DNA of 64,000 nt from Gemmatimonas sp. Its GTDB lineage: Bacteria > Gemmatimonadota > Gemmatimonadetes > Gemmatimonadales > Gemmatimonadaceae. Below, in pieces: positions 29,720-64,000 of this stretch. Location: NCBI GenBank assembly GCA_011390885.1, contig JAABRO010000004.1, positions 1-64,000 on the forward strand, in the 5' to 3' direction. The position numbers and the translations under genes were made by a program. Numbering within the stretch: position 1 is the stretch's first letter; every line of letters begins with the position of its first letter. A model generated the notes under the pieces. The model was not told the DNA's origin. It was given only the letters and a program-made list of their open reading frames with translations, and ran no database searches.

Positions 29720-31735
29720 CTACGGCGTCACATCCTGCAGGTATTTCCGGTACCACCCCAGATACCGTTCGTAGCGGTCCCGCACGAAGCTCGGGCGCGA
29801 GATGCCGTGAAACTGCCCTGGATACACCACCAGCTGCGTGGGTACGCCGAGTGAGCGAAGCGCCTGGTACATCTGTTCGCTGCCGCTGATGGGCACGTTG
29901 AAGTCCTTCTCGCCGCCCATGAACAGGGTGGGCGTGGTGATCTTGTCCGCCTTGTAGAAACCGTACGAGAGTTTCTGCCACAGCGCCGGATTCTTCCACG
30001 GCGCACCGAGCTCGTTCTCGTACTGGTAGATGTACTGGTCGGTGCCGTACATGCTCGTCTGCAGCGCGCTGCCGGCGCCGCTCGTGGCGGCCTTGAAGCG
30101 CGTGGTGGTGGCGATGGTGTAGTCGGTGAGAATGCCACCATAGCTCCACCCGCCGATGCCGAGTCGCGAGGCATCGACGAAGCCCAGCCCGATCACGTGG
30201 TCCACGCCGGCCAGCAGGTCCTGCACCTCCTTGTTCCCCCAGTCGGCGTAGATCGCCTTCTTCCACGCCCGCCCGCGCCCGCTGCTGCCGCGGTAGTTCA
30301 CCGCGAGCACGAGATAGCCGTTGGCCGCGAACAGCTCGCGCTCGAAGTTGTAGAGGTGCTGGTCCTGGCCGTTGGGTCCGCCGTGAATGCGCAGCAGCAG
30401 GGGATACTGCTTCGTTGCATCGAAGCCGGCTGGCTTCACGAGCAGCGCGCCCACCGTGAGTCCATCCCGGTTCTTGAACTGCACGTCCTCGGTGGTGGCC
30501 ACCTTCAGCGTCGCGAACACGCTGTCGTTCACGTGCGTGAGCGCACGCAGCACCCCACCGTCCCACGCGTGCACTTCGGCCGAACGCTGCGCCGTGCCGC
30601 TGTTGAGCACGAGGCGCCCGTTCGCTGATTCGTCGAACGCCGTGACCACCCGCCGTCCGTCCACGAGGCGCGTCACGTCGCCGCCGCCCGCCGGTACCTG
30701 CGCAAGATGCGCGGCCCGGTCGTCGCCGAGCAGGAAGCGCAATGCGGAGCCGTCGGGCGTGAACGCCAGCTGGCTCACATCGCGGTCGAGGGTGGGCGCG
30801 AGCAGTCGCGGTGTGCCGCCACTGCTGGGCACGAGCGCGATGGTGTTCTGCGTGTACGCGGACAGCTCCGGTTCGCTGGCCTGCAGGTATGCGATGTGCT
30901 GTCCATCGGGACTCCACACGGGCCCCGCATCGGGGCCGCGCCAGGAGGTGAGGCGCACGGGCGTCGCGCCCGGCGTCGCGTCCACCACGTAGATGTCGCT
31001 GTTGTTCACGCGATCGGGATCGCCGCCCTCACGCTCGCTCACGAACACGAGCCGCTTGCCATCGGGCGACCAGCGCACCTGGCGGTCGTCGAACGCACCG
31101 GTGGTGAGCTGCTCGGCCTTCTTCGTGGCCACATCCACGATCCAGATGTGATCGCGCCGCTCGTCGAGGTATCCGGCACCGTCACGCTTGAAGCCGTAGC
31201 GATCCACCACGATGGGCTTCGGGCTCGCCGATGCAGCCGAATCCGGCTTGCCCTCGTTCGGGTCGGGGTCCTTCGAGATCACCGCGATGCGCGAGCCGTC
31301 CGGCGACCAGTCGTACTCGGCGACACCGCCCTTGAGGCTCGTGAGGCGCACGGCTTCACCGCCGGCTCGGTCGAGCAGCCAGAGTTGTCCGCCCTTGGAT
31401 TCATAGCGCCCCGACACGAACGCGAGATAGCGATTGTCCGGGCTCCAGCGCGGGTTGCTCTCCGCCTCCGGTGACGCCGTCATGCGCACGGTTCGCGTGC
31501 CGTCCCAGCTCACCATGTACACATCGCTGTCGCTCTTGTCCTTCGCCGAGTCGACGGTGGTGACGGTGTAGGCCACCCACGCGCCGTCGGGGGAGATGCG
31601 CGCGGCGCCGACGTCGCGGAAGCGATAGATGTCCGTGGGGCGAAGCGGGCGGGGCTGGGCGCCGAGCGGTGCCGGCACGGCGGGTGCGAGGCTGCAGACC
31701 GTGAGGGCCAGCAGGAGGGCGATGCGAGCGTGCAT
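29720..31735 (-). CDS. Secreted S9 family prolyl oligopeptidase-like peptidase
   Basis: A 671-residue exported serine peptidase. A signal peptide ends near LGAQ (residue 27); an N-terminal beta-propeller (about 30-410) has repeated PDGxxxA/WSPDG blades; a C-terminal alpha/beta hydrolase carries the triad Ser531 (GWSYGG), Asp611 (GEKDFNVP) and His643 (GQFHG). Likely a dipeptidyl- or acylaminoacyl-peptidase-type enzyme in the periplasm. A second S9 gene lies 68 bp upstream in the same direction, so both probably share a transcript. Confidence 0.93.
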   Translation of the reverse strand: MHARIALLLALTVCSLAPAVPAPLGAQPRPLRPTDIYRFRDVGAARISPDGAWVAYTVTTVDSAKDKSDSDVYMVSWDGTRTVRMTASPEAESNPRWSPDNRYLAFVSGRYESKGGQLWLLDRAGGEAVRLTSLKGGVAEYDWSPDGSRIAVISKDPDPNEGKPDSAASASPKPIVVDRYGFKRDGAGYLDERRDHIWIVDVATKKAEQLTTGAFDDRQVRWSPDGKRLVFVSEREGGDPDRVNNSDIYVVDATPGATPVRLTSWRGPDAGPVWSPDGQHIAYLQASEPELSAYTQNTIALVPSSGGTPRLLAPTLDRDVSQLAFTPDGSALRFLLGDDRAAHLAQVPAGGGDVTRLVDGRRVVTAFDESANGRLVLNSGTAQRSAEVHAWDGGVLRALTHVNDSVFATLKVATTEDVQFKNRDGLTVGALLVKPAGFDATKQYPLLLRIHGGPNGQDQHLYNFERELFAANGYLVLAVNYRGSSGRGRAWKKAIYADWGNKEVQDLLAGVDHVIGLGFVDASRLGIGGWSYGGILTDYTIATTTRFKAATSGAGSALQTSMYGTDQYIYQYENELGAPWKNPALWQKLSYGFYKADKITTPTLFMGGEKDFNVPISGSEQMYQALRSLGVPTQLVVYPGQFHGISRPSFVRDRYERYLGWYRKYLQDVTP

Positions 31736-31803
31736 GGTCGACGGAGAGAGGATGAAGGGCCCGGTCCGGACGAGATGAGAGGAACAGTGCGGCGCGCGGC
31801 GCC

Positions 31804-33903
31804 CTATGGCGTCACCCGCGCCGTCGGCTGCTCGATCAGCCAGTGCACCATCCACTGGCGGCTCCGCTCCTGCGCGTCGGCGGCGAGCCACGGCTCGGTG
31901 ATGCCATGGCCGCTGCGCGGATAGATGAGGAACTCCGTGGGCACGCCGAGCTTCTTCAGGGAGGCGTACCAGATCTGCCCTTCGCTGAGCGGCGTGCGAA
32001 AGTCGTTCTCGCCGTGAATGACCAGCGTGGGTGCCGTCACGTTCTCGACGTACGAAATTGGCGAGTTCTTGCGCCACGTGTCGCGCTGCTCGTGATACAG
32101 GCCATCGAAGGCGCGCGCGGGCTGGTTCGAGTCGGTGGTGCCGGCCATCGCTTCCCAGCTCGCGATGGACGCACGCGAGACACCGGCGGCGAACAGTTTC
32201 GTGCGCGCCGTCAGCCAGTTGGTCATGAACCCGCCGTAGCTGCCGCCCATCACGCCGAGTCGCGCGCGATCGATGTCGGGGTAACGCTGGAGCACCGTCT
32301 CCACGCCGGTGATGAAGTCCTCTTCGTCGACGATGCCCCACGCGTTCTGGATCGCGTGCTTGAAGGCGTTGCCGTAGCCGGTGGAGCCGCGCGGGTTGAG
32401 ATAGAACACGAAGAAGCCCGACGCCGAGAGCGTATGGAAGCCCGTCGAGAAGGCGCTCGTGTACGCCGAGTGCGGGCCGCCGTGGATGTTGAGCACCATG
32501 GGATACTGCCGTCCCGGTTCGTAGCCCACGGGGGGAATCACCCATCCCTCGATCTCGGTGCCGTCGCGCACCGTCCACGTCAGTCGCGTGGCGGGCTGCC
32601 GCGCGATCGTGCCGAGCAGCGAATCGTTGAAGGCGCTGACACGGACTTCGCGGCTCCCGGTGCGATCGGACATGAACGCATCAGCGGGGGACACGGGCGA
32701 CGTGGCCGTGTACGCCATGGTCTGCCCATCGGCGGCAACCGACACGTTGGCGATCACGCGATCACCGGTGGTCACCTGTCGCACGGCCCCACCGGACGCG
32801 GCGACTTCGTACACGTGCGCGTTGCCATGCACCGTCGCGGTCCATCGAATGGCGCGGCCGTCCGGCGTCCACCAGGGTGCGCCGGCGGTGCGATCCCACG
32901 CTGCCGTCAGGTTGCGCGGCGTACCGCGGGCCATGCCGCGCGCGTCGATGTCGACCACGTGCAGCTGCGTCTCGGCATTCCAGGCGGCGGTGTGCAGGAA
33001 GGCGAGCTTCGTGCCGTCCGGCGAGATGGCGGGCGACGCCACGCCGCCGGGCAGGCTGAACGGTTCTGCGGGTGTGCCGCCGTCGACCGGCACCACCCAG
33101 ATGCGCGACGACGGATCGAGGTTGAGCTCGTCGTCTTCCTTCGGATTGCCGGCGTACACGAAGTACGACCCGCTCGGTGCCCATTCGAAGTCGCCCACGT
33201 TGTGGGGCACGGTGGTGACCTGTCGTGGCGTCCCGCCACTGGCCGGCACCACGAACAGCTGTCGCTTGGGCACCAGTGCCGGATGCGGCAGGAAGGTGAA
33301 GGTGCCGTCGCGCTTGTAGCGCAGGTGCGTGATCTGGTAGCCGTCGAATCGCTCGGCGTCGAGCGGTTTGGTAATGCCGTTGGGGGCAATGCGTAATGCC
33401 TTCGCCGAGGGCTTCTCCTTGCGCTCAGGCTCGGCGGTGTACGCGATGAAGCGCCCGTCCGGCGACCACACGGGACTGCCGCGCACGCCCTCGATGCGAT
33501 ACGCCTCGCCACCCAGCCCACCGACGCGCAGGAACCAGGTGCTGCCCTCCTCCTCGCCACGGCGCGACGTGAAGCCGAGCACGGTGCCATCGGGCGACCA
33601 GCGCGGCGCGCTGGAGTTGCGGGTCGGGTCGGTGAAGCGCACCGCCTCGCCCACGGGCTGTCCGTTGCGCAGCGCGCGCAGCCAGAGTGCGGTGCTGCGA
33701 TTGTTGTCCTTCTCGTTCACCGTGGTGACGGTGAAGGCCACGTGCGCGGCGGTGGGCGAGAGGGCCACGTCGCCGATCGAGACGAGGCGCATCGCGTCCT
33801 GCGGTGTGAGCCCGCGGGGCTGCGCGTGGAGCGGCGCGGACGCGGCGGTGATGCCCAGCAGGACGAGGAGGGCAGGAAGGCGGCGGGGCCGCTGGTGCAG
33901 CAT
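31804..33903 (-). CDS. Secreted S9 family acylaminoacyl/dipeptidyl-peptidase-like protein
   Basis: A 699-residue exported S9 peptidase with the same layout as the next gene downstream. The signal peptide ends near PLHAQ (28); a propeller covers about 35-420 (APRWSPDGTVLGF and similar blades); the hydrolase domain has Ser555 (GGSYGG), Asp634 (GENDFRTP) and His666 (RSGHG). The GGSYGG and NIHGGPH wording fits the acylaminoacyl-peptidase group. ATG 33903 follows a purine-rich site (CCGGAG). It is divergent from the ankyrin/Clp-N gene. Confidence 0.93.
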   Translation of the reverse strand: MLHQRPRRLPALLVLLGITAASAPLHAQPRGLTPQDAMRLVSIGDVALSPTAAHVAFTVTTVNEKDNNRSTALWLRALRNGQPVGEAVRFTDPTRNSSAPRWSPDGTVLGFTSRRGEEEGSTWFLRVGGLGGEAYRIEGVRGSPVWSPDGRFIAYTAEPERKEKPSAKALRIAPNGITKPLDAERFDGYQITHLRYKRDGTFTFLPHPALVPKRQLFVVPASGGTPRQVTTVPHNVGDFEWAPSGSYFVYAGNPKEDDELNLDPSSRIWVVPVDGGTPAEPFSLPGGVASPAISPDGTKLAFLHTAAWNAETQLHVVDIDARGMARGTPRNLTAAWDRTAGAPWWTPDGRAIRWTATVHGNAHVYEVAASGGAVRQVTTGDRVIANVSVAADGQTMAYTATSPVSPADAFMSDRTGSREVRVSAFNDSLLGTIARQPATRLTWTVRDGTEIEGWVIPPVGYEPGRQYPMVLNIHGGPHSAYTSAFSTGFHTLSASGFFVFYLNPRGSTGYGNAFKHAIQNAWGIVDEEDFITGVETVLQRYPDIDRARLGVMGGSYGGFMTNWLTARTKLFAAGVSRASIASWEAMAGTTDSNQPARAFDGLYHEQRDTWRKNSPISYVENVTAPTLVIHGENDFRTPLSEGQIWYASLKKLGVPTEFLIYPRSGHGITEPWLAADAQERSRQWMVHWLIEQPTARVTP

Positions 33904-40946: not shown

Positions 40947-43649
40947 TCACCGCCCCTCGCGCGCGAGCCGCTCCCGCAGTTCCGTGAGCCAGTGTTCCGC
41001 AATCACGACGCGAGACGGTGCCTCATTCATGGGCAGGCTGCGCGCCATGAGGAATCGGCCATCAGGGGCAACGTCCCACGGCGCGTAGAACTCGTACTCC
41101 ACCTGCAGCAGGTCGTCCGGCACACGAAACAGCGTGACCGGACGCGCGAACTCGATCGGCATCTCGGCGCTGCCCGGGCGAACGACGCGCGCCGATATCA
41201 TCTCGCGCTCCGGGCTCAGGAAGAACAGCTCACGCCCATCGCGCGACCACACGGGCGAAGTGCCGCCGCCGCTCGACACCTGGCGCTTCACCTCATCGGT
41301 GCGAGGAAACGAGCGTACGTAGACTTCGCTGCGCCCGGTTTCGTTGGCATGATAGGCGATCCATCGCCCGTCGGGCGACGCGGCCACCGCCTGCTCGTCG
41401 AACGGCGAGGCGATCAGTGGTGTCAGCGCCGTGTCCACCCCGAGGCGCAACCCGCGGATGTCCCGCCCGCCGCGCACCGATCCGCTGGCGCCATCGCGCA
41501 CCAGCAGCCATCGGCCGTCGGGCGCCAGCGCGGCCTCGTCCACCAGACCGCTCAGGAGGAGCGAATCCCGCCCGGTTCCGTCCGCGCGGCGAGCGAACAC
41601 GCCGGGCTGGGTGCCCTGCCGCACGAACGTGACCCACTGTCCGTCCGCCGTCCACCGTGGACGCATGTCGGGTCCCGACTCCGGGGACAGTCGCGAGAGC
41701 GGCCCATCGGGCAGGGTCCGTATCCAGATGTCGTCGCCGCCAGCCTCCGTGTTGAGCCCGATGGCCAGCCGCGAGCCATCGGGGGACAGCGCCCACCCGA
41801 CATTGCCACTCCCGGCGGTGAGCGTGAGCTGCCACGTGTCGTCCAGCGGCGCACTGCGTCCGCTGCGGTCGACCCAGACCAGCTCCCAGGACCGCAGGAG
41901 CACGCTGCGGCCCAGTCGCGCACTGAGCGTGCCGGCGGCGGAGAGATGGATCGGGGACAGGCCGTCGGACACGCCGGTCGCCATCTCGATCGGCTCGCCG
42001 CGCAACTGCCGGGCCTCCACGTCGAACGCCGCCACCATCAGGCGCCCCGACGCCACGTAGAGCAGGTGTCCGGTCGGAGACCACGCGGAATAGGTCGCGC
42101 CCTTGAGCACCAGCTGCGCGTCGCGACGCGCGACATCGAGGACGAAGAGATCACAGGTCGTGGGCGAGCTGCACTGGGCGAAGAACGCGAGCTCCGTGCC
42201 TGGGACATCCACCGGAATCACGGCCGCCCCAATGGTGGAGACGAACAGCGAGGTCTCCGTGCCGCCGTCGCTCGCCACCTGCGTCAGCGCCGGCAGGCCG
42301 CGATCGGACTTGGCGAAGAGCAACGTGCCATCGTCGCGCCAGGCCACACCGCCCGGGCCGTAGACGCCACTCTCGACGAGCACGTCCGGGACGCCGCCGG
42401 CCACGGGCACCTTGCGCAGCTGCGAGCTGGCCGTGAACGCGATCCACCGTCCGTCGGGCGAGAGCGCGAAGGACACGGCGTCCTCCGACCCGTCGATGGG
42501 TGCGCCCGTGGCCTGCTCGCGACGCTTGCGATAGAGCTGCGAACCCGTGGTGCCGTCCGGCCGGGGGGCCGCGTACACGAGGAAGCTCCCATCCGGTGCG
42601 CCGACCGGCGCTGGCAGGTCGCTGGTGATCCTGGTACTGCCAGATGCCGCCGCCGCAACCAGCTCGTAGCGCAGCACCGGCGTCGGCGGCGACGGGCGCA
42701 ACCACCCCCACGCGGCGGCGACCAGCAGCGCCGTGGTCACGCCGGCGAAGGCGAACGACCGTGACGGCGCGCCGCGTCCCGTCGTGGCGGTCGTGCGCGT
42801 GGTGTGCACCGTGCGCCGCGAATCGGACAGCGCCGCCGCGAAGGCGTGCATGCTGTCGAAGCGATCCGCCGGCAGCTTCTCGAGTGCCGTGGCGACCGCG
42901 CCGGCCACGTGCGGCGGCACGGTCCGGCGCCGCGTGACGAGGTCGGCCGGCACTTCGGTGATGATCTTCATGATCACCTGCTGCGCCGACCCGCCGGTGT
43001 GCGGCGGCTCGCCCGCGAGCGATTCGTAGAGCACACACGCCAGCGCGTACTGGTCGCTGCGCGGGGTGAGGTCCCGCTCGGCCGTGGCCTGTTCCGGGCT
43101 CATGTAGTGCGGCGTGCCCAGCGAGAGCCCCGTTTCGGTCAGCCGCCCGCCGGCCGCGGCGCTCACGGCGAGCGCGATGCCGAAGTCGGCCACCATCGGC
43201 CGACCGTTCTGCAGCAGGATGTTCTCGGGCTTGATGTCGCGGTGGATCACCCCCTGCGTGTGGGCGTACTCCAGCGCGTCCGCCACGTCGGTCGCGATGC
43301 GCACCGCTTCCTCCACGCCCAGCTGGCTCTCGCGGTCGAGCTTGGTCCGCAATGTCTCGCCATCGACGAACGGCATGACATAGTACAGGAACCCGTCGGC
43401 CTCCCCGCTGTCGAAGAGCGGGAGAATGTGCGGATGCTGCAGGTTCGCGGTGGTGCGGATCTCCACCAGAAACCGCTCGGCGCCGATGACGGCAGCCAGC
43501 TCGGGGCGCAGGACCTTGATGGCCACGCGTCGATCGTGCTTGCGATCGTGCGCGAGGTAGACCGTGGCCATGCCGCCTTCGCCCAACTGGCGTTCGAGGC
43601 GGTAGCGGTCGGCGAGCGCAGCGACGAGGCGTGCGGGAGCGTCGGCCAT
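40947..43649 (-). CDS. Ser/Thr protein kinase with C-terminal propeller domain
   Basis: A 900-residue membrane kinase. Cytoplasmic Hanks-type domain (about 15-280): Gly loop LGEGGMATVYLAHD, VAIKVL lysine, catalytic loop HRDIKPENILL, ADFGIAL, and the activation segment with LGTPHYMSPEQ. One membrane segment follows (about 310-330, AGVTTALLVAAAWGW), and the remaining 560 residues form PD40/TolB-like blades (SPDGRWIAF, WSPTGHLLYV and others), which would face the periplasm. It may sense an outside signal, but no ligand is known. It stands alone between the amidohydrolase genes and a divergent formylglutamate hydrolase gene; targets unknown. Confidence 0.93.
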   Translation of the reverse strand: MADAPARLVAALADRYRLERQLGEGGMATVYLAHDRKHDRRVAIKVLRPELAAVIGAERFLVEIRTTANLQHPHILPLFDSGEADGFLYYVMPFVDGETLRTKLDRESQLGVEEAVRIATDVADALEYAHTQGVIHRDIKPENILLQNGRPMVADFGIALAVSAAAGGRLTETGLSLGTPHYMSPEQATAERDLTPRSDQYALACVLYESLAGEPPHTGGSAQQVIMKIITEVPADLVTRRRTVPPHVAGAVATALEKLPADRFDSMHAFAAALSDSRRTVHTTRTTATTGRGAPSRSFAFAGVTTALLVAAAWGWLRPSPPTPVLRYELVAAAASGSTRITSDLPAPVGAPDGSFLVYAAPRPDGTTGSQLYRKRREQATGAPIDGSEDAVSFALSPDGRWIAFTASSQLRKVPVAGGVPDVLVESGVYGPGGVAWRDDGTLLFAKSDRGLPALTQVASDGGTETSLFVSTIGAAVIPVDVPGTELAFFAQCSSPTTCDLFVLDVARRDAQLVLKGATYSAWSPTGHLLYVASGRLMVAAFDVEARQLRGEPIEMATGVSDGLSPIHLSAAGTLSARLGRSVLLRSWELVWVDRSGRSAPLDDTWQLTLTAGSGNVGWALSPDGSRLAIGLNTEAGGDDIWIRTLPDGPLSRLSPESGPDMRPRWTADGQWVTFVRQGTQPGVFARRADGTGRDSLLLSGLVDEAALAPDGRWLLVRDGASGSVRGGRDIRGLRLGVDTALTPLIASPFDEQAVAASPDGRWIAYHANETGRSEVYVRSFPRTDEVKRQVSSGGGTSPVWSRDGRELFFLSPEREMISARVVRPGSAEMPIEFARPVTLFRVPDDLLQVEYEFYAPWDVAPDGRFLMARSLPMNEAPSRVVIAEHWLTELRERLAREGR

Positions 43650-53718: not shown

Positions 53719-54798
53719 TCAGCGGCCGCGGAAGAGGATGCGGCGCACCGTCGGCGGCCCGTTGTCCGCCCGGAAGCGCGCCAGGTACACACCGGGCGCC
53801 ACGGGCCGCCCGTCGCGCGCGGTACCGTCCCACACGAACCGGTTGTCGCAGTTGCTCCCCGAGCCCGGGGCACCGCGCCCGTAGCGCCCCGCCGGAAAAA
53901 GCGCCTGACCGTCCTCTGCCGGCACGACCGTGCGCACCGGGTTGCCGCGCAGGTCGAGGATTTCCAGCGAAATGCGCGCACCGGGCTCCCCCACGTCGAA
54001 CCAGAAGCAGGTCGAGAAGGACGCCGCCGACGGAAATGGGTTGGGAAAGTTCTGGTAGATGAGCGTGGACGTGGGCAGCGGCGGGTCGATGATCACGAAC
54101 GAGCCGGGGCTGCTGCGCGTGACCGACTCGGCCGCACCCGCCAGTCGCGCGACCACGCGCCAGCGGTACGACGTATTCGCTTGGAGCGCGCTGGGAAGCC
54201 GGAGCAGCGTGTCGGTGATGCCCGCGGCGCCGAACACGGACACATTGTTGGCCAGCACTTCGAGGTCGTACCGCCACGGCCCCGGACCGGTGTCGACCGA
54301 CGGCGAGCGCCAGCGGAAGAGCGGCTGCCGCACGTCCACGATGTCGCCCTGTGGCGAGGCGGGATCGACGAGCTCCACCCACGGCGGCACGAGACGCGGG
54401 CCGGTGATGTCGGAGATCGCCGCCTGCGTGCCCACCTCCGCGATGGCCCGCCAGTACACGGTCGCCCCGCTCGGCAGCGCGCGCTGGATGCGCAGCGGCT
54501 GGGTGCTGTCGGTCATGAGGAACGTGGTGTCCACCAGGTACGGTGGCAGCACGCTGAAGTTCTCGCTCACGCGCATGGTGACGCGGATCGGGCGCGCCGG
54601 CCCGAAGTCGAACGCGCGGATCGTGAACCGCGGCGACACCGACCGCAGCACCACGTCCTCGGACGTCTCCACGACCACGCGCGGCTGCTGCGCCGAGGCG
54701 CGCGCAGCCGTGCCAGCGAACGCCAGCGCCACCACGCACGCGCGAGCGCAGGCCCGAGCGAGAGTGCGTGCACGCGCCCGCGGGGACGCGCGCACCAT
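53719..54798 (-). CDS. Exported protein with T9SS/FlgD-like C-terminal domain
   Basis: A 359-residue exported protein with an Arg/Ala-rich signal peptide ending near ASAQQ (37). Two Ig/fibronectin-like segments follow (about 45-150 and 150-245; FRWRSPSVD, SYRWRVVARL). The C-terminal domain (about 255-359) begins IYQNFPNPFPSA, then ISLEILDLRGNPVRTV, WDGTARDGRPVAPGVYLARF and ends RRILFRGR. This is the FlgD-Ig/type IX sorting-domain pattern seen in Bacteroidetes. Its start overlaps the smc stop by one base (TGATG). It may be surface-exported if a type IX system exists in this genome. Confidence 0.75.
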   Translation of the reverse strand: MVRASPRARARTLARACARACVVALAFAGTAARASAQQPRVVVETSEDVVLRSVSPRFTIRAFDFGPARPIRVTMRVSENFSVLPPYLVDTTFLMTDSTQPLRIQRALPSGATVYWRAIAEVGTQAAISDITGPRLVPPWVELVDPASPQGDIVDVRQPLFRWRSPSVDTGPGPWRYDLEVLANNVSVFGAAGITDTLLRLPSALQANTSYRWRVVARLAGAAESVTRSSPGSFVIIDPPLPTSTLIYQNFPNPFPSAASFSTCFWFDVGEPGARISLEILDLRGNPVRTVVPAEDGQALFPAGRYGRGAPGSGSNCDNRFVWDGTARDGRPVAPGVYLARFRADNGPPTVRRILFRGR

Positions 54799-57700
54799 CA
54801 GGCCGGTGTCGTGGCCGGCTCCGGCGCGTCGTCGCTTGCCGACGGGTCGTCGCTGCTCGCGCCGCGACCGTTCGCCTCGCTGGCACCGCCAGCCGGCACC
54901 GCGTCCTCGACCGCCGGACCACGCATGCGCACGCTGACGATCGACGACACCCCCGGCTCCTGCATCGTCACGCCGTACACCGCGTCCGCCGCTTCCGTCG
55001 TGGTGCGCGGATTGTGCGTGATCACGATGAACTGCGTGCGCGCCTTGAACTGGTTGAGCATCTTGACGAAGCGCCCGATGTTCTGGTCGTCGAGCGGCGC
55101 GTCCACTTCGTCGAGCAGGCAGAACGGGCTCGGCTTGGTGAGGAAGATGCCGAAGAGCAGCGACAGCGCGACCAGTGCGCGCTCACCGCTCGAGAGCAGG
55201 TGGATGCGCTGCGTGCGCTTGCCGCGCGGCGAGGCATGCACCTCGATGTCGCAGTCGAGCGGGGCGTCGGGGTTCTCGAGCCGCAGGTCGCACTCGCCGC
55301 CGCCGAAGAGCGTCTGGAAGATCTGGCGGAAGTTCTCGCGCACCTGCCCGAACGTGACCAGGAACAGCTCACGCGCCGTGCTGTCGATTTCGCGAATGGC
55401 CTGGTGCAGCGACTGCTTCGCCGACACGAGGTCGTTGCGCTGTCCGGTGAGGAACTCGAGGCGACGCTGCTCCTCCTCGTGCTCCTCGATCGCGAGCGGG
55501 TTCACGGCGCCGAGCGCGTCGAGGGCGTCGCGCAGTTCGGTGGCCTCGACGCGCAGCGCCTCGGTCTCCACCTCGAGCTCCTCGGCGTCGGCCAGCAGCT
55601 CCTCGAGCGGACGGCGCCACTCGGTCTCCAGTCGCTGGCGAATGGCCTCGCGACGGCCGGACAGTTCGGTATGGCGCAGCTCGGCGTGGTGCAGCGCCTC
55701 GCCCACCGCCGTGTATGACCGGTGCGCCTCGTCGAGCACCCGCTCGGCGGCGTCGAGCGCCTCGGAGGTGCTGCGTACCGCCTGCTCGGCGCCCGCGAGG
55801 TGCGCATCGGCATCGCGCAGCGCGGCCTGCTCCGTCTCGAGCTGTCCGCGCCAGTCGGCGAGCTGCTGCGCGAGCGCCGAATCGGCGTTCGCGAGCGTGT
55901 CGAGCTCCGCCGCCAGCGCCGACAGGCGCGCCGCGGCCGTGGAATCTTCCTCGTCGAGTCGGCGTTCGCGGTCGCGCGCCACCGACAGGCGCGCCTGCGC
56001 CTGTGCCTGTGCCACCTGCAAGGTCGAGCGCGCCTCGCGCGCCTCCTCGAGCCCGCGCTCGGCTTCGGCCAGCACGCCACGCGATTCGGCGATCGCTGCG
56101 TCGGCCTCGCCCGCGCGCGACTCGAGCGCCTCGAGCTGTGTGCCGAGCGAGGCGGCGCGTTCGTCGAGCTCCTGAATGCGCGTGGTGAAGCGCTCGGTCA
56201 GCGCCGTGGACTGCTGCAGCTCTCGCGTGACGCGCTCCACGCGGCGCTCCACCTCGCGCACCGTCTCTTCGGCGCGTCGCAGCTGCTGCTGCGCGCGTGC
56301 GCTGGTTTCGCTGGCCTGGTGCTGCGCCCGATCGGCCGCGGCCAGCATCTCGCGCGCCGCCTCGGAGGCGGCCTGCGCGCCTTCGCGCTCTGCGGCCGCG
56401 GCATCGAGCCGCTCGCGCAGCTTGGTGAGTTCCGCGCGCCGCTGCAGCGGGCCGGGGCCCGTGCTGGTGCCGGGGAGGAACACTGCGCCCCGCGCATCGA
56501 CGAACGCCTCGCCGCCGTCGCGCGACTGGACGTGGCCGAGCAGGGCACGCACCCACGCCGCGGCAGGGCCGGTGGCCTGCACGGCCGACGCCAGGTCGTT
56601 CGGCTGCGCCACGTCGTTGAGCGCATTCACCGCATCGAGCGGAAGCAGCAGCAGCGGACCAGGATTCGCCGAGGCGTGCCAGCCGCGCACGGCCTCGGCG
56701 GCGGCCGCGTCGCGCACCACGACGGCGTGCAGCGTGGCGCCGAGGTAGCGCTCCACGAGGCGCGCCGCGTCGCCATCGGCGGTGAGGAAGTCGGTGAGCG
56801 GGCCGAGCACCGCACCGTCACCGAAGCGCTCGCGCTCCTTGAGCAGCTTCTGCGCGCTGGGCGCGAGCCCCACGCGCTCGCGCTCGAGCCGCTCGAGTGC
56901 CGAGACCTGGCCGTCGAGCGATGTGTGCGTTTCCACGCTGCGCGCCAAGAGCGCGCGCGCCTCGGCATCGGCCGTGCGCGCCGCGGCCGCAGCCACCTTC
57001 GCGCCTTCGAGCGCGTGCTGCGCCTCCTGCACTTCGGCGCCGAGGATCTCCAGCTGTTCCCGCGCGCGCACGAGTTCGCGTTCGGTGGCCGTGAACTGGT
57101 CGTCGAGCTGCGCACGCTCGCGCTCGAGCGTCTCGAGGCGCTGCTGCGCCTCGCCACGGTCGCGCACGGCACCTTCGCGGTCGAGTTCGAGACGACGCGC
57201 CTGGTCGCGGTGCGTACGCACTTCGCGCTCGAGCGCGTCGAGCGACTGCCGCGCGCGCTGCACGATGGCGCGCGCCTCCTCTTCGGCCTCCACCCGCTCG
57301 GCCAGCGCCTCGCCGGCCTCGGCGAGCTGCTGCTCGAGCGTGGCGCGGTCGACGGCCGCCTTCTCGCGATCATCGCGCAGCCGCTGTCCGAACGCCTCGT
57401 TCTCGAGCCGCTCCTGCTCGGCGCGCGTACGGCGTGCCTCGGTGCTGCGCTGGCGTTCCTCCGACACGGCCAGCTCGCGCTCGAGGCGCAGCGTGCGTTC
57501 GCGCTGCTCGCCGGCCAGGCGCGCCACTTCGGCGCGCGTTGCTTCCGCGGCGCCACGTGCTCCGTGGGCCTGCTCGCGCTCGGCTTCGGCGCTTCGAATC
57601 GCTTCCTCCGAACCAGGCACCTGCCCGCGCAGCTCCTCGAGCCGGCCAGCGAGCGACTCGAGCTCCTCGCGCCAGCTGGCCATTTCACGTGTGGCGAGCG

Positions 57701-58382
57701 CGATCTCCACCGTGAAGCGGCGGCTCGTGAGCTCCGCATGACGTTCCGCGCGACGGCGCTGGCGCGAGAGCGAACGCACCTGCGTCTGCACTTCACTGAT
57801 CAGGTCGTCGAGGCGCGACAGGTCGACCGTGGTCTCCTCGAGGCGCCGCTCGGCGCTGCGCCGTCGGTCGCGATACAGCCCCACGCCGGCCGCTTCCTCG
57901 AACAGCTCGCGGCGATCGTCGGGCCGGTCGGAGAGCAGCGCGTCGATCATCTTGCTCTCGATCACCACGCCCGAGTCGGCGCCCAGCCCCGTGCCGCGCA
58001 CGAGGTCCTGGATGTCGCGCAGGCGGCACGGCGCGCGATTGAGCAGGTATTCGCTCTCGCCCGTGCGCATGAGGCGCCGCGTGATCACCACTTCCTTGAA
58101 CGGCACCGGCAGGTCGCCGTCGGTGTTGTCGAAGTGCAGCGAGACCTCGGCCATGTTCACCGGCTTGCGCGCCGACGAGCCGTGGAAGATCACGTCCTCC
58201 ATCTTCGCACCGCGCATCACGCGCGCGCGCTGCTCGCCGAGCACCCAGCGCACGGAGTCCGACACGTTGGACTTGCCGCAGCCGTTCGGTCCCACGATGG
58301 CGGTGACGCCGCGATCGAACACGAACTCCGTGTGATCGGCGAACGCCTTGAATCCGTGCACTTCGAGCTTCGTCAACCGCAC
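54798..58382 (-). CDS. smc: Chromosome segregation protein SMC
   Basis: A 1194-residue SMC protein. N-terminal ATPase half has Walker A GPNGCGKS (31-38) and GEQRARVMRGAKMEDVIFHGS; two long coiled coils (about 170-490 and 660-1000) flank a hinge (about 500-655). The C-terminal half has the signature LLSSGERALVALSLLFG and Walker B FCLLDEVDAPLDDQN. With ScpAB it organises the chromosome. The start is GTG 58382, whose codon overlaps the upstream TAG stop by one base (TAGTG), and its own stop overlaps the next start, so it is embedded in a coupled unit. ScpA/B are not in the window. Confidence 0.96.
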   Translation of the reverse strand: MRLTKLEVHGFKAFADHTEFVFDRGVTAIVGPNGCGKSNVSDSVRWVLGEQRARVMRGAKMEDVIFHGSSARKPVNMAEVSLHFDNTDGDLPVPFKEVVITRRLMRTGESEYLLNRAPCRLRDIQDLVRGTGLGADSGVVIESKMIDALLSDRPDDRRELFEEAAGVGLYRDRRRSAERRLEETTVDLSRLDDLISEVQTQVRSLSRQRRRAERHAELTSRRFTVEIALATREMASWREELESLAGRLEELRGQVPGSEEAIRSAEAEREQAHGARGAAEATRAEVARLAGEQRERTLRLERELAVSEERQRSTEARRTRAEQERLENEAFGQRLRDDREKAAVDRATLEQQLAEAGEALAERVEAEEEARAIVQRARQSLDALEREVRTHRDQARRLELDREGAVRDRGEAQQRLETLERERAQLDDQFTATERELVRAREQLEILGAEVQEAQHALEGAKVAAAAARTADAEARALLARSVETHTSLDGQVSALERLERERVGLAPSAQKLLKERERFGDGAVLGPLTDFLTADGDAARLVERYLGATLHAVVVRDAAAAEAVRGWHASANPGPLLLLPLDAVNALNDVAQPNDLASAVQATGPAAAWVRALLGHVQSRDGGEAFVDARGAVFLPGTSTGPGPLQRRAELTKLRERLDAAAAEREGAQAASEAAREMLAAADRAQHQASETSARAQQQLRRAEETVREVERRVERVTRELQQSTALTERFTTRIQELDERAASLGTQLEALESRAGEADAAIAESRGVLAEAERGLEEAREARSTLQVAQAQAQARLSVARDRERRLDEEDSTAAARLSALAAELDTLANADSALAQQLADWRGQLETEQAALRDADAHLAGAEQAVRSTSEALDAAERVLDEAHRSYTAVGEALHHAELRHTELSGRREAIRQRLETEWRRPLEELLADAEELEVETEALRVEATELRDALDALGAVNPLAIEEHEEEQRRLEFLTGQRNDLVSAKQSLHQAIREIDSTARELFLVTFGQVRENFRQIFQTLFGGGECDLRLENPDAPLDCDIEVHASPRGKRTQRIHLLSSGERALVALSLLFGIFLTKPSPFCLLDEVDAPLDDQNIGRFVKMLNQFKARTQFIVITHNPRTTTEAADAVYGVTMQEPGVSSIVSVRMRGPAVEDAVPAGGASEANGRGASSDDPSASDDAPEPATTPA

Positions 58383-59767
58383 TAGAAAGTTCTCCCCGTT
58401 CTGTAAACCAGCGTCGGCGGGATGCCCGCCCCCTGCAGTGAGTCGGCGAGCAAGGTCGCCTGCGCGGGCGTCTGGAACGCGCCGGTGTAGATCGTGACGG
58501 TGCCGGTGGTCTGGCGCAGCGCATACGCGCGAATGCCGCGCGCGCGCCAGCGGGCCAGCGCGGCGTCGGTGTCGTCGGTGGCCAGCCCCTGCTCGAGCCG
58601 GAACGCGTACGGCACGCGAATGATGCTCCCCGACGTCGCCCCGATCTGTTCGGCGCCGCGCAGTCGCGTCAGCAGTGCCGTGGCCTGTGCACTGTCGGCA
58701 CCGGCGCCCACCGTGACGCGATACCAGCGTCCACCGTCGGCGCCGAGTCGCACCGGCGAGATCGCCACGGCGGACAGCGCATCGACCGCTTCGGGCGGAC
58801 GCGCCTCCTCGATCGTGTTGGCCGCCACGAAGTACACCGCGAACGCGGCGGCCTGCGACGAGTCGGCCGGATTGGCCACGACGAGCGGGCCACTGCGCGT
58901 GGTGGCCGGACCCGTGTCCCCGGGCGCGAGCGGCGGCGCCTCCGCCACGACCACCGTGTCGGTGCGCATCGCGGTCGAATCGTCGGGGATGCGGCCGGAC
59001 GCACTGTCACGCGCCGCGTTGCCTGTCGCGGTGCTGTCCGCGTCGGCCGCGCCAATCGGCTCACCAGGGAAGAAGCGCGCCTGCAGCATGGGCCACGACC
59101 AGAGCACCGCGAGCACGACCGCCGCCGCCGCCGCGAGCGACGCGAAGAGTCGGCTCTGCCGCTGCCCGCGATCTTCGGCGGCAACGGTGCGCGCGCGCTC
59201 CACCTTGCGCTGCTCCTCACGAGGCGGTGGCGGCGGGGCCATCCACAGGGTGCGCACCTCGGGGATGTTCGGAGCGGCACTCTCGCCGACGGGAAGCAGT
59301 GCGCCCACGTACCGGCACAGCGCGTCGAATCCCGGGACATCGCGCACGGCCACGAGCAGCAGCAGCGCACCCACCTGCTGGAATCCTGCGGCCAGCCGAC
59401 GCCACCGTTCGTTGTTGTAGATCGCTTCGAGCGCCACCGACTCGGTGCCACTCGGCATCACGAACACCCCGCCCGATGCGAGCGGCCGGGCGATCTTGTT
59501 GAGCGACACGCCGTACAGGAAGCTGTCCGAGATGCCGTGCGGGTCATCGTCGGGGCCGGCGTTGACCGCATCATGCAGCGGGAGCACGTCGCCGACGAGG
59601 TCGGCGATCGCCACGCGTCGCGTGGTGCCGTGCACCTCGGCGATCGCGAGCGCGACGGCCGCCGCGACGACTGCGTCTGGGCCGCTCACCACGACCGCGT
59701 GCTGCCCCTCGAGCAACGGCGCGAGGCGCCGTGCCTCCGCCTCCACCCACGCGCGATCCCACGGCAT
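58382..59767 (-). CDS. SPOR-domain membrane protein
   Basis: A 461-residue protein. The cytoplasmic N-terminal part (about 1-190) looks like a nucleoside-triphosphate-binding-type alpha/beta domain (AVVVSGPDAVVAAAVALAIAEVHG) without a clear Walker lysine. A membrane segment (about 205-225, LFASLAAAAAVVLAVLWSW) is followed by an Ala/Thr/Asp linker and then a SPOR domain region (about 310-461, VAISPVRLGADGGRWYRVTVG, GTVTIYTGAFQTPAQATLLADSL). SPOR domains bind denuded septal peptidoglycan, so a link to division is likely. It overlaps both its neighbours by one base. Confidence 0.8.
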   Translation of the reverse strand: MPWDRAWVEAEARRLAPLLEGQHAVVVSGPDAVVAAAVALAIAEVHGTTRRVAIADLVGDVLPLHDAVNAGPDDDPHGISDSFLYGVSLNKIARPLASGGVFVMPSGTESVALEAIYNNERWRRLAAGFQQVGALLLLVAVRDVPGFDALCRYVGALLPVGESAAPNIPEVRTLWMAPPPPPREEQRKVERARTVAAEDRGQRQSRLFASLAAAAAVVLAVLWSWPMLQARFFPGEPIGAADADSTATGNAARDSASGRIPDDSTAMRTDTVVVAEAPPLAPGDTGPATTRSGPLVVANPADSSQAAAFAVYFVAANTIEEARPPEAVDALSAVAISPVRLGADGGRWYRVTVGAGADSAQATALLTRLRGAEQIGATSGSIIRVPYAFRLEQGLATDDTDAALARWRARGIRAYALRQTTGTVTIYTGAFQTPAQATLLADSLQGAGIPPTLVYRTGRTF

Positions 59768-61296
59768 CAGGGCGCGCCCTCGAATACCCAGTAGGAGCGC
59801 CCGCTTGCCTTGCCGATGCGCTCGGCTTCCTCGCGCGAGGCGAACGGACCGAGCACCACGCGGTAGAGCGTGCGTCCGTCGCGCACCGACGTGCTGATGC
59901 GCGGGGTCCGCCCTTCCACGTTCACGCCGGCGGCCGCTTCGCGCGCGAGCGCTTCGCTGAGCACGGCGGCCAGCTGCACCGTGAACATCGGGGCGCGCTC
60001 CGGCGCGCTCACCATCCCCGCCGCCGAGTCGCGGGCGGGCGCGCCACGGCTCGCACTGTCCGTCACCATCGCGCCGAGCGAGTCATGCGCCGCGGAGTCG
60101 CCGACGCCCCCCATGCCCGGCGCGCCCTCGGAGCGCGCGCTGTTGCCTGAGCTGCGGAAGCGCACCGGCTCATCGAGCCCCGTGGCGCGCGGGCGGAAGC
60201 CGTTCCAGCGCATGGCGTACCAGAAGTCGCGCGCGCCCTCGGGAATCGTGCGCACCGTGCCGAGGTCGAGCGAGGACGCGAGCGCCACGGTGTCGCCGTG
60301 CACGAGCGCGATCGCGCCGTCGGGGAGCACGAGCGGCAGGTCGCCGCGCCACCTCGAGCGCAGCGGACCGACCAGCGAGGACGTGCCCACGTCGATCACC
60401 CACACGACCTCGTCCGGGCCGCGCACCAGCAGCGCGCGGCCGAGCGGATCCATGCGCAGCGCCACACCGGCGGCCGGGAGCGAAACGCGCTCCACGACCT
60501 CGCCGGAGAAGCGGTCCACGACGTGCAGCTGCGTCCCGTCGCCCGCAAGCACGAACACGCGGTCGCCGCTCGGCGATGTCACGAACGTACGTACGCGGTC
60601 GCCGAGGTCCACCGACACATCCTGCACGAAGTCGCGGGTGCGCAGCGAGTACACGTGATCGCCGGCCGACACGAAGGCGCGATCGCCCACGGCGACGCCG
60701 GACACCGTGCCACTGTCGGCCGCGACGTCGATGCGCAGCGAGTCCACGACGATCGTGTCGGGCGGGCGCAGGCGCTGCACGAGCAGGCTTCCATCGTCGC
60801 GGTGCGCCACGAGCAGTGACCCATCGCGCAGCGGGATCAGCGCGTCGGGCGTGCCAGGCATGTCGAGGCGCCACCCGTCCCCCACGGGGGTGTGGCGAAC
60901 GATGCGCCCTTCGGTGTCGATGGCGAACATCGTGCCGCCATCGGCCGAGGCGTGCTGGCGCCCGCCGGCCGCGCCGGGCAGCGCCACGGCGCCCAGGCGC
61001 AGGTCGAGGCGAACGGGCTGGCCGGCCGTGTCCACGGCCGTGAGGTAGCCGTCCTCGGGGTCGTAGCCCAGTGTCCGGTCGAGCGCCGGCACGCGATAGC
61101 TCGACCGCCAGACGGTGGAGTCGAGGGCGGGGTAGGCGAGCGCCGTGACGAGACCGCCGCCCTGCGGCACGCGCAGAACGATCGGATCCTGACCGGCGGG
61201 TATCGTGGCGAGCGCACCGGATCCATCGGCGCGCTCTGGCCGGTCGGCACAGGCGGTCACCACGAGGACCAGCGCCCACGCGAGGAGCGTGCGCAT
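59767..61296 (-). CDS. SPOR-domain propeller lipoprotein
   Basis: A 509-residue lipoprotein with lipobox VTAC (Cys16). Residues 35-370 form a beta-propeller-like part with repeated blades (DGSLLVAHRDDGSLLVQRL, SPSGDRVFVLAGDGTQLHVVDRFSG). After a Ser/Ala/Gly/Asp linker, a SPOR domain closes the protein (about 435-509, FTVQLAAVLSEALAREAAAGV, LYRVVLGPFASREEAERIG). It probably sits in the outer membrane and touches septal peptidoglycan. This is the first gene of the seven-gene minus-strand unit; its stop overlaps the next start (TGATG). A hairpin and 109 bp separate it from the upstream barrel gene. Confidence 0.82.
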   Translation of the reverse strand: MRTLLAWALVLVVTACADRPERADGSGALATIPAGQDPIVLRVPQGGGLVTALAYPALDSTVWRSSYRVPALDRTLGYDPEDGYLTAVDTAGQPVRLDLRLGAVALPGAAGGRQHASADGGTMFAIDTEGRIVRHTPVGDGWRLDMPGTPDALIPLRDGSLLVAHRDDGSLLVQRLRPPDTIVVDSLRIDVAADSGTVSGVAVGDRAFVSAGDHVYSLRTRDFVQDVSVDLGDRVRTFVTSPSGDRVFVLAGDGTQLHVVDRFSGEVVERVSLPAAGVALRMDPLGRALLVRGPDEVVWVIDVGTSSLVGPLRSRWRGDLPLVLPDGAIALVHGDTVALASSLDLGTVRTIPEGARDFWYAMRWNGFRPRATGLDEPVRFRSSGNSARSEGAPGMGGVGDSAAHDSLGAMVTDSASRGAPARDSAAGMVSAPERAPMFTVQLAAVLSEALAREAAAGVNVEGRTPRISTSVRDGRTLYRVVLGPFASREEAERIGKASGRSYWVFEGAP

Positions 61297-61405: not shown

Positions 61406-64000
61406 TCAGAAGTTCGCGCCGAACCACCAGGTGCCGAAGCCGCGCGCGTTGGGGCGCCCGATCGGGATCGCGTAGTCCCAGCGCAGGATGAGCAGGCCGA
61501 AGAGGTTCATGCGCAGGCCGTAGCCGTAGCTCGACAGCACCGACCGCTGCGTGTCGGGGTTGGCGTTGGCCGGCGCGTTCCAGCTGATCGTCTGTCCCTG
61601 GTTCCAGGCGAGACCGGCGTCGTAGAACACGAGGCCGTCGATCGGGGGCAGCCCGAAGTAGCCGCCGGCAAACCCCTTCCGCAGCACCGGGAAGCGCAGC
61701 TCCGCGTTGGCGAAGGCCACGCGGCTGCCCACCGTCTCGTCGTCGGTGCAGGAAATGCCCCCGGCGATCGCGCCACAGCCGAAGCCGATGTCGCTGCGGT
61801 TGTAGCCGCGCACGAAGTCGGGTCGCCCGATCCACTTGGGGAACACCGCCTCGTCGCGCCCGATCGTGAGGCTCGAGGTGAAGCGCGTGGCCAGCGTGAG
61901 GTAGTTGAAGATGATGGGGTAGTACGCCCGCGCATCGACCATGTAGTCCACCCACTGCCACGTGCCGAACTGGGGCGCCACCGACATGCGCACCCGACGG
62001 CCCGAGAGCGGCCCCACCACGCCCATGAGCGTGTTGTCGGTCACGAAGGCCAACGTCGGCGACACGGTGTTCACCGAGAGCAGGTTGCGCGTCTCCCCCC
62101 GCTCGTACTGCGTGGCGAAGCCGAAGGCGTCGATCACGCGGAAGAACGGGAACGTCTGGTAGTCCACGTTCGAGAACGACGCGCCGAACTCCAGGCGCGT
62201 GAATCGATTGAACGGGTACAGCGCCATCGCGGCGATCTGCCGGTTCACCAGGCGCAGGATGTTCTGCGTCTCGAGGAACTGCGTCTCGTTGATCTGTTCG
62301 AACGTGCCGCCCCCGGCCAGGTAGAACGGCTGCTGCGCAACGGACAGGTTGTACTGCAGCCGTCGGCCGAGCGACGTGTACCCGGTGTACACCTGCGCAT
62401 CGCTGAGCTGCCCATTCAGGCCGCCCGCGATCGCCAGCTGGTGGTCACCCATCAGGTCGGCGAGGATGATGGTCGTGGTGCCGAAGACGCCCTGCCCGAA
62501 GCCCCCCTGCTGGTACCCGATGTTCGGCTGCGCGATGTACTCGGGGGAGAAGCGCGCCTTGTAGGCGTACTCCTGCAGCTCGGACGTGTCCGGCAGCGCG
62601 AAGTCGGCGCTGTCGAGCATCTGCTGCACCGTGACCGGCCCGGTGGTCGCATTCGCGAGCACCGCCGCCGGCACCTCGGAGGAGAGGCGGAGCCCGGTGC
62701 CCGGGGCACGGTAGTAGGCGCGGCGCGCGGCGCTCGTATCGGAGGGCACGCCGATCGGGAGCGGCGGTACGCTGCTCGGGCGCGTCCCGAGGGACGGCAC
62801 CGCGTCAGTGGCCGCCGGCGCCTGCGCCACGACGATCGGCTGCGCCTGGAACGGCTGCTTCTTGAGCGACCGCGGGTTGGGGATGCGCCAGATCGTGTGA
62901 TCGCTGCGCTCGTAGTACACGAACGCGAGCACGTCCGCGTCGCGCGCCCACGTGATCGCCGGGCTGTATTCGGCCACCGCCGTGATCGCGCCCACCACGT
63001 TGGTGAGCTGGTAGTGCTGCTGCGACTCGAGGTCGAACAGGAACAGGTTGGCGACGCCGGTGCGGTCCGACACGAAGATCAGCGACTTGCCGTCGGGCGC
63101 CCACTGCGGGTTGATGTTGAGCCCCGCCTGACCGGGCAGCACGCGCACCGCGCCCGATTCCACGTCGAGCAGCGAGATGCGGTGCTTGCCGAAGCGCAGC
63201 ACCGAGAAGTCGGTGTCGGTCCCGCGGTCGCTGGCGAAGGCGATCGTGCGCCCGTCGGGTGACCACTGCGGGTGCGCATCGCCGTGCATGTCGCGGAACA
63301 GCGCGCGCGCGTTGCTGCCATCCACGTTCACGACCCAGAGGTCGGTGAGTCCGCCCGACAGCCCCGAGAAGACGAGGCGCTGGTTGTCCGGCGAGAACGC
63401 CGGGTTGAGCACCTGGTCCACCGGCGGCTCGATGCGGCGAATCACCCGGCGGCGCGCCACGTCCATGACGTACAGCACGTCCTTGCCGCTGCGCTGGCCG
63501 GTGAACGCGAGCAGCTTGCCGTCCTGCGAGAACGAGGGCTGCGAGTAGATGAAGCGCAGCTGCTCGAAATCGGGGTTGGTGCTCGACTTGACCAGCCGCG
63601 CGATGCGCTTGCCGGTCTCGGCGTTCGCGAGGTACAGGTCGGGGAAGACCTCACCGCGCGTGAGCGAGCCGTACGAGATGAACGAGATGAGCTTGGCGTC
63701 CGGCGACAGCGCCGGGGCCACGAACAGGTTGGCGATGCCTCCCGAGCGGCGCTGCGAGAGCAGCGGCTCCGCGAACTCGCGCGGCCGGTCGAGCTGAGCC
63801 ACGGTGGGGAGGAACTTCTGCTTCATCGCCTCGGTCCACTGCAGGCTCAGCTCCTCGAGCCCCAGTCCGGTTTCGCGTCGAAAGGCGCGGTCGATGCCCA
63901 CGCTCGGGATCGCGTTCATGATCTCCGCGATCACGTCGTCGCCCCACCGCTGCCCCACGTACTGCCACACCGAGAAGCCGTACCGGTACGGGAAGTACAG
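61406..64000 (-). CDS. TolB-like propeller plus outer-membrane barrel protein (N-terminus outside window)
   Basis: The frame is open to the window edge, so only the C-terminal 864 residues are seen. The first part, FPYRYGFSVWQYVGQRWGDD, resembles the end of a peptidase-MA/gluzincin-type domain. Residues about 80-400 form TolB/PD40 blades (ALSPDAKLISFIS, FSPDNQRLVFSG, WSPDGRTIAFASDRG, WAPDGKSLIFVSDRTG). From about 480 to the end is a beta-barrel with the BamA/surface-antigen pattern, including FVRGYNRSDIGFG and an aromatic C-terminus (WWFGANF). A three-part envelope protein is inferred. Whether the upstream peptidase motif HExxH is present cannot be seen. Confidence 0.82.
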   Translation of the reverse strand: MYFPYRYGFSVWQYVGQRWGDDVIAEIMNAIPSVGIDRAFRRETGLGLEELSLQWTEAMKQKFLPTVAQLDRPREFAEPLLSQRRSGGIANLFVAPALSPDAKLISFISYGSLTRGEVFPDLYLANAETGKRIARLVKSSTNPDFEQLRFIYSQPSFSQDGKLLAFTGQRSGKDVLYVMDVARRRVIRRIEPPVDQVLNPAFSPDNQRLVFSGLSGGLTDLWVVNVDGSNARALFRDMHGDAHPQWSPDGRTIAFASDRGTDTDFSVLRFGKHRISLLDVESGAVRVLPGQAGLNINPQWAPDGKSLIFVSDRTGVANLFLFDLESQQHYQLTNVVGAITAVAEYSPAITWARDADVLAFVYYERSDHTIWRIPNPRSLKKQPFQAQPIVVAQAPAATDAVPSLGTRPSSVPPLPIGVPSDTSAARRAYYRAPGTGLRLSSEVPAAVLANATTGPVTVQQMLDSADFALPDTSELQEYAYKARFSPEYIAQPNIGYQQGGFGQGVFGTTTIILADLMGDHQLAIAGGLNGQLSDAQVYTGYTSLGRRLQYNLSVAQQPFYLAGGGTFEQINETQFLETQNILRLVNRQIAAMALYPFNRFTRLEFGASFSNVDYQTFPFFRVIDAFGFATQYERGETRNLLSVNTVSPTLAFVTDNTLMGVVGPLSGRRVRMSVAPQFGTWQWVDYMVDARAYYPIIFNYLTLATRFTSSLTIGRDEAVFPKWIGRPDFVRGYNRSDIGFGCGAIAGGISCTDDETVGSRVAFANAELRFPVLRKGFAGGYFGLPPIDGLVFYDAGLAWNQGQTISWNAPANANPDTQRSVLSSYGYGLRMNLFGLLILRWDYAIPIGRPNARGFGTWWFGANF

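Follow-up and report, generated by a model that had tools for sequence, protein, structure and literature searches.

A gene on the reverse strand at the end of the window (the 64,000 nucleotides analysed, C4:1-64000) encodes a single chain in which a zinc-peptidase-like domain is followed first by a propeller resembling TolB and then by an outer-membrane barrel of the BamA-like kind. Its frame within the window (61406-64000, reverse strand) runs to the edge without a stop, and the gene appears truncated solely because the window edge falls at 64000. Contig C4 continues to 122280 and holds the full gene (C4:61406-64645, reverse strand; 1079 aa), from an ATG at C4:64645, immediately following the rsfS stop codon, to its own stop codon at 61406-61408. 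By eye the protein N-terminus (MLRTITRVGARLALAAVAVLTATTEARAQM) is signal-peptide-like, and the ...AQ.YFG-like junction is kept in most relatives among those listed. We read the protein as an outer-membrane-anchored zinc peptidase, probably periplasm-facing, whose propeller would present substrates, and place the probability of this reading at about 0.5.

The earlier note had recognized a trace of a peptidase-MA domain at the N-terminal edge of the frame. This trace, the FPYRYG stretch, is part of a whole domain, of which the window holds the C-terminal portion (about residues 216-285 of 1079; 63791-64000, reverse strand) including the Y220-R-Y-G motif (63977-63988, reverse strand). Residues 1-215 lie outside the window (C4:64001-64645, reverse strand) and carry, after the signal-peptide-like start, HEMVH (142-146) and Glu176, with the stretch WMMEGMAEY. 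Past base 64000 the HExxH motif is thus in frame with no interrupting stop, and together with Glu176 and Tyr220 it completes the domain, ruling out that the trace was an edge artefact. The whole-protein Pfam scan returns PD40 plus weak peptidase families; when the N-terminal 315 aa are scanned BSP scores 21.5 bits (cut-off 23.8) and M9 (PF01752) 18.2 bits (cut-off 26), both below cut-off, so that M9 collagenase membership by PF01752 is not reached. A profile of the peptidase domain nevertheless retrieves a Grimontia collagenase (M9, E 3e-4) with HExxH, EGxAEY and YRxG aligned, and the invariant Tyr220 aligns with the YRWG stretch of M9 collagenases, whose tyrosine is described as catalytic in the M9 and M1 literature. 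Membership of M48, the family of BepA, was rejected: PF01435 is unlisted for the N-terminal 315 aa, and the three places where the genome matches M48 do not include this gene. A remote paralogue in the same genome (L060:2345-5299; C16:57344-60298), 25% identical over the N-terminal part, has HELAH, a downstream EG motif, a weak PD40 match and an aromatic strand-like tail at its end that gives no Omp85 Pfam match.

The predicted structure is that of a full-length relative (L084, a named Gemmatimonadetes record, 63% identical; 46 alignment rows used). It has a mean pLDDT of 84.1 and a pTM of 0.81, with pLDDT below 50 mainly at residues 1-29 and in the linker at 603-671. That the model comes from a relative and not from the protein itself counts against the preferred reading. 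Modelled alone, the peptidase part of L084 gives a pLDDT of 89.1 and a pTM of 0.86 and superposes on M9 collagenase 8jt1 with Z 17.4 (rmsd 3.4 for 226 residues, 17% identity) and on the M30 peptidase lugdulysin with Z 16.9 (rmsd 6.6 for 245 residues), while the best Foldseek match is a collagenase (E 4.6e-5). With the fold taken from this model, the domain shows the clan MA gluzincin arrangement, in which an HExxH motif and, further along the chain, a predicted Glu ligand sit on the expected fold. M1 aminopeptidases follow at Z about 13-14, and M61 structures also occur among the fold matches; absence of a family from these lists is not counted as exclusion. An M1-like aminopeptidase or general peptide scavenger, with the barrel merely an anchor or pore, would account for the M1 and M61 matches, but M9 matches better, the M1 scores lie near the level warned of for a common arrangement in mostly helical models, and the GAMEN motif was not seen by eye in the protein's own sequence, making this very improbable.

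Beyond the peptidase domain, the earlier note's order of propeller then barrel in the same polypeptide is borne out by profile matches and by both folds in the relative's model. The TolB/PD40-type beta-propeller (about residues 300-612; 62810-63748, reverse strand) gives a PD40 match of 92 bits with the whole protein in Pfam (cut-off 20.9) and a best TIGR02800 TolB match of 121.3 bits, which does not reach the equivalog cut-off of 343.15; the L084 propeller superposes on TolB 1crz with Z 27.2 and an rmsd of 2.3 for 244 residues. The Omp85/BamA-like barrel (about residues 685-1079; 61409-62593, reverse strand) matches PF01103 Omp85 at 43.2 bits (cut-off 24; 61442-62038, reverse strand) in a scan of just the C-terminal 309 aa and at 42.6 bits in the six-frame search, and is absent from the whole-protein hmmscan listing. 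In the L084 model the barrel is present and matches Sam50 and BamA at Z about 22 (Deinococcus BamA 8xnb: Z 22.4, rmsd 4.5, 301 residues), with Foldseek also returning Sam50/BamA. A VRGY motif (61802-61813, reverse strand; R946 in 121/122 and G947 in 122/122 aligned proteins) resembles the VRGF/Y motif that Omp85 proteins have in loop 6. PD40/TolB-like propeller stretches also occur in large frames elsewhere in the window (30656-33651 and 41214-41804, reverse strand), and the genome has 61 TIGR02800 matches in total.

The linker between propeller and barrel (about residues 613-684; 62594-62809, reverse strand) is variable in the alignment and, from the relative's low pLDDT, probably disordered. 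No POTRA family was matched at E up to 1 in the whole-protein hmmscan, in which weak matches can be filtered out, and the linker stands there instead. On sequence grounds the lack of a POTRA match, a domain that Omp85 assembly factors have, and the sub-threshold peptidase scores both tell against the preferred reading. An N-terminal enzyme-like domain, a disordered linker and a C-terminal Omp85 barrel also recall type Vd (PlpD-like) single-chain secretion, in which the barrel would bring peptidase and propeller to the surface to digest external protein or bind partners. M9 collagenases, the closest fold, are secreted enzymes. PlpD-type proteins, however, have a POTRA domain between passenger and barrel, and the three-part protein further differs from patatin-Omp85 in carrying a peptidase instead of the patatin and an extra propeller. 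The available text of PMC4104836 describes the PlpD precedent. We regard surface secretion as doubtful, also in view of the distribution given below.

Under the preferred reading, the barrel would anchor the protein in the outer membrane and leave its N-terminal parts in the periplasm as in BamA, a periplasmic placement of peptidase and propeller that is plausible by analogy. The disordered linker, about 70 residues long, could let the peptidase-propeller unit move beneath the barrel, while the propeller, of the type that in TolB is a docking surface, may bind a partner or incoming polypeptide and the peptidase would trim or destroy envelope polypeptides in the periplasm. Such a protein might combine in one chain the kind of cooperation seen among BepA, BamB and BamA in E. 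coli, with which it shares an Omp85 barrel, a propeller and an HExxH metallopeptidase. It differs from that trio in being a single chain without a detected POTRA, with a TolB-type propeller and an M9/M30/M1-like rather than an M48 peptidase; the POTRA repeats that precede the barrel in BamA (OM_YaeT) are likewise not found. Its likeness to M9 collagenases lies in the fold (relative's model), HExxH, the downstream Glu in EGxAEY and YRxG, and its difference in falling below the PF01752 cut-off and continuing into propeller and barrel. In the partial texts at hand, E. coli BepA, an M48 protease, degrades stalled outer-membrane proteins at BAM and the BamB propeller serves as a docking surface (PMC13067283), as does the propeller of TolB (PMC4104836).

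The genome encodes a BamA of its own on C15 (354.8 bits, above cut-off), two further Omp85 proteins with partial BamA matches, and a TolB-like protein that scores 253 bits across most of the TIGR02800 model, below the cut-off of 343.15; no BamB scores above cut-off. Since the genome has its own of each, the three-part protein would act beside and not instead of BamA and the TolB-like protein, and replacement of either is ruled out. A BepA-like role is possibly already filled, because the genome has three M48 peptidases, and this counts against the preferred reading.

Conservation was assessed over 122 of 126 aligned rows, the remote paralogue (L060), two copies cut by contig ends (L112, L134) and one for which no start was chosen (L138) having been dropped. 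H142, E143, H146, E176, G177, Y220, G947 and D1009 are invariant (122/122) and E180, like R946, is kept in 121/122, the loci in these counts not all being independent. Part of this conservation is by construction, as 80 of the loci, the best 80 of 341, were fetched by the two motif patterns WxxEG.. and HE.[VA]HxFQ. as queries. In relatives picked by overall similarity H142, E143, H146 and E176 are kept in 45/45, a set that omits L017 and L056 (one genome, frame lost near the barrel end), L001 and L004 (copies of the gene itself), and L002 and L035-L041 (propeller matches). In the L017/L056 genome (G019) the match of the orthologue stops at query residue 899 and the frame is then lost in the barrel, perhaps because of a sequencing error or a genuine frameshift. 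By mean identity to the protein, the peptidase (0.53) is the best conserved domain, ahead of the propeller (0.45), the barrel (0.36) and the linker (0.18). Among the 46 rows of a separate alignment (A2, E up to 0.01), one of which is the window fragment without most of the peptidase, PD40 is matched in 46, BSP in 40, Omp85 in 18, and Peptidase_MA_2 and Peptidase_M9 in 16 each. Chance origin of the three-part design is excluded by its conservation.

These figures bear on another reading, that of an outer-membrane assembly factor whose propeller would replace POTRA and BamB, whose barrel would insert client proteins and whose peptidase would be secondary. The Omp85 barrel with its VRGY motif is kept, which favours such a role, but the peptidase active site is invariant in the best conserved domain and the genome has a full BamA. 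This reading, which could draw on the likening of the WD40 group to a BamA-BamB fusion by the authors of PMC4104836 in its available text, is in our judgement unlikely.

That same partial text sorts Omp85 proteins into ten subfamilies, among which the combination with a propeller is the 'WD40-Omp85' group (Heinz and Lithgow 2014; PMC4104836), and the rarer subfamilies are described as conserved at genus level only. The three-part protein has both features of the group as described there, a TolB-like N-terminal propeller joined to an Omp85 barrel, and differs in that a complete gluzincin-like peptidase precedes the propeller and that its family is present in nearly all genomes of one phylum. 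The text of PMC4104836 mentions no peptidase on the WD40 group, for which its supplementary domain tables may list one, and among the titles and abstract openings searched none was found that names the three-part protein. As far as these partial sources go, propeller-Omp85 has itself been known since 2014, and the new elements are the conserved active site on such a protein and its rsfS-linked position. Another Omp85 group differs from the three-part protein, being defined by PF00149. PF00149 is a metallophosphoesterase family. The name given to that 'Metallo' group in the available text of PMC4104836, Omp85-metalloproteases, therefore seems mistaken.

A survey of the phylum, judged from named near relatives to be Gemmatimonadota, scored three candidates per genome and found a match in 200/200 genomes at E up to 0.001, with 197/200 below 1e-70; the three weak matches (5e-20 or worse; G053, G075 and G098) may be propeller hits alone. 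Among the matches listed, relatives covering most of the query occur in Gemmatimonadota, Acidobacteriota, Aminicenantes (Aminicenantota), Latescibacterota, Rhodothermota, Ignavibacteriales (Ignavibacteriota), a Bacteroidetes bin, Zixibacteria, KSB1 and Elusimicrobia, and a copy in Eisenbacteria ends at a contig end. With at most 5 candidates scored per genome, 90/148 genomes of the phylum group of Salinivenus lutea and 70/149 of that of an Acidobacteria genome match at E up to 1e-30, mostly in frames of at least 900 aa with few shorter (448 to 643 aa) among the matches listed, and multiple copies occur in several genomes. The plasmid collection and the viral contigs gave no match to the three-part protein. 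Near-universal presence in the phylum and relatives in other phyla rule out a one-off gene fusion. The earlier note called the design uncommon in textbook systems: all three modules do share one chain, but it is not rare in genomes, since nearly all of this phylum have it and it is common in other phyla. It appears widespread across several bacterial phyla and little studied. Near-universality and retention beside rsfS also fit a housekeeping protein better than the secreted exoenzyme that PlpD-like export would imply.

The gene order in the genome is rpsF, rpsR, a DUF2232-like membrane protein (match just below cut-off), rplI, rsfS, the three-part gene, two SPOR proteins and SMC, rpsF and SMC being named from their sequences. 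The next gene (59767-61296, reverse strand; 509 aa) has a lipobox-like start by eye, a sub-threshold PQQ_2/BamB-like match and a C-terminal SPOR domain, and its product is possibly a lipoprotein of the outer membrane and a partner of the three-part protein. It is followed by the second SPOR-domain protein (58382-59767, reverse strand; 461 aa) and then SMC (54798-58382, named without a profile scan). An rsfS match is present in 72/125 loci (68/117 where the upstream flank is at least 500 bases), and, where the downstream flank is at least 1400 bases, the first SPOR protein is matched in 62/67 loci linked to rsfS and in 0/43 unlinked ones. A midpoint-rooted tree of 72 proteins (21 rsfS-linked rows and all 51 others) places all 21 linked rows in one 23-row clade with support 100, together with two unlinked rows, L047 from a same-phylum genome and L110 from Latescibacterota. 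From this grouping and the rsfS and SPOR linkage the window's copy therefore seems to be a housekeeping form that has been retained for long, next to a sister clade that has spread widely.

More tentatively, and with odds clearly short of even, the family could be a widespread envelope machine that joins barrel, substrate-docking propeller and protease in one chain. It would be produced together with a SPOR lipoprotein partner and the genes of a ribosomal operon, and would have a fixed, possibly essential part in maintaining the outer membrane, both in Gemmatimonadota and in other phyla. Should the preferred reading hold, an Omp85 protein could itself carry proteolytic control of the outer membrane, and this would be in use in large groups of bacteria other than Proteobacteria. 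The protein has one obvious catalytic residue to change, and the named strain Salinivenus lutea DBO (L148) has a copy belonging to the sister clade, which makes the idea open to direct test.

For the unlinked clade a generally conserved neighbourhood was not found, which counts against the preferred reading; most of its clusters look like shadow frames of high-GC DNA. In seven loci of one eight-locus cluster (L051, L121, L135, L140, L146, L151 and L152, all Gemmatimonadota) an MlaD-like protein (MCE, by eye) lies downstream of the unlinked copy on the opposite strand, convergent to it.
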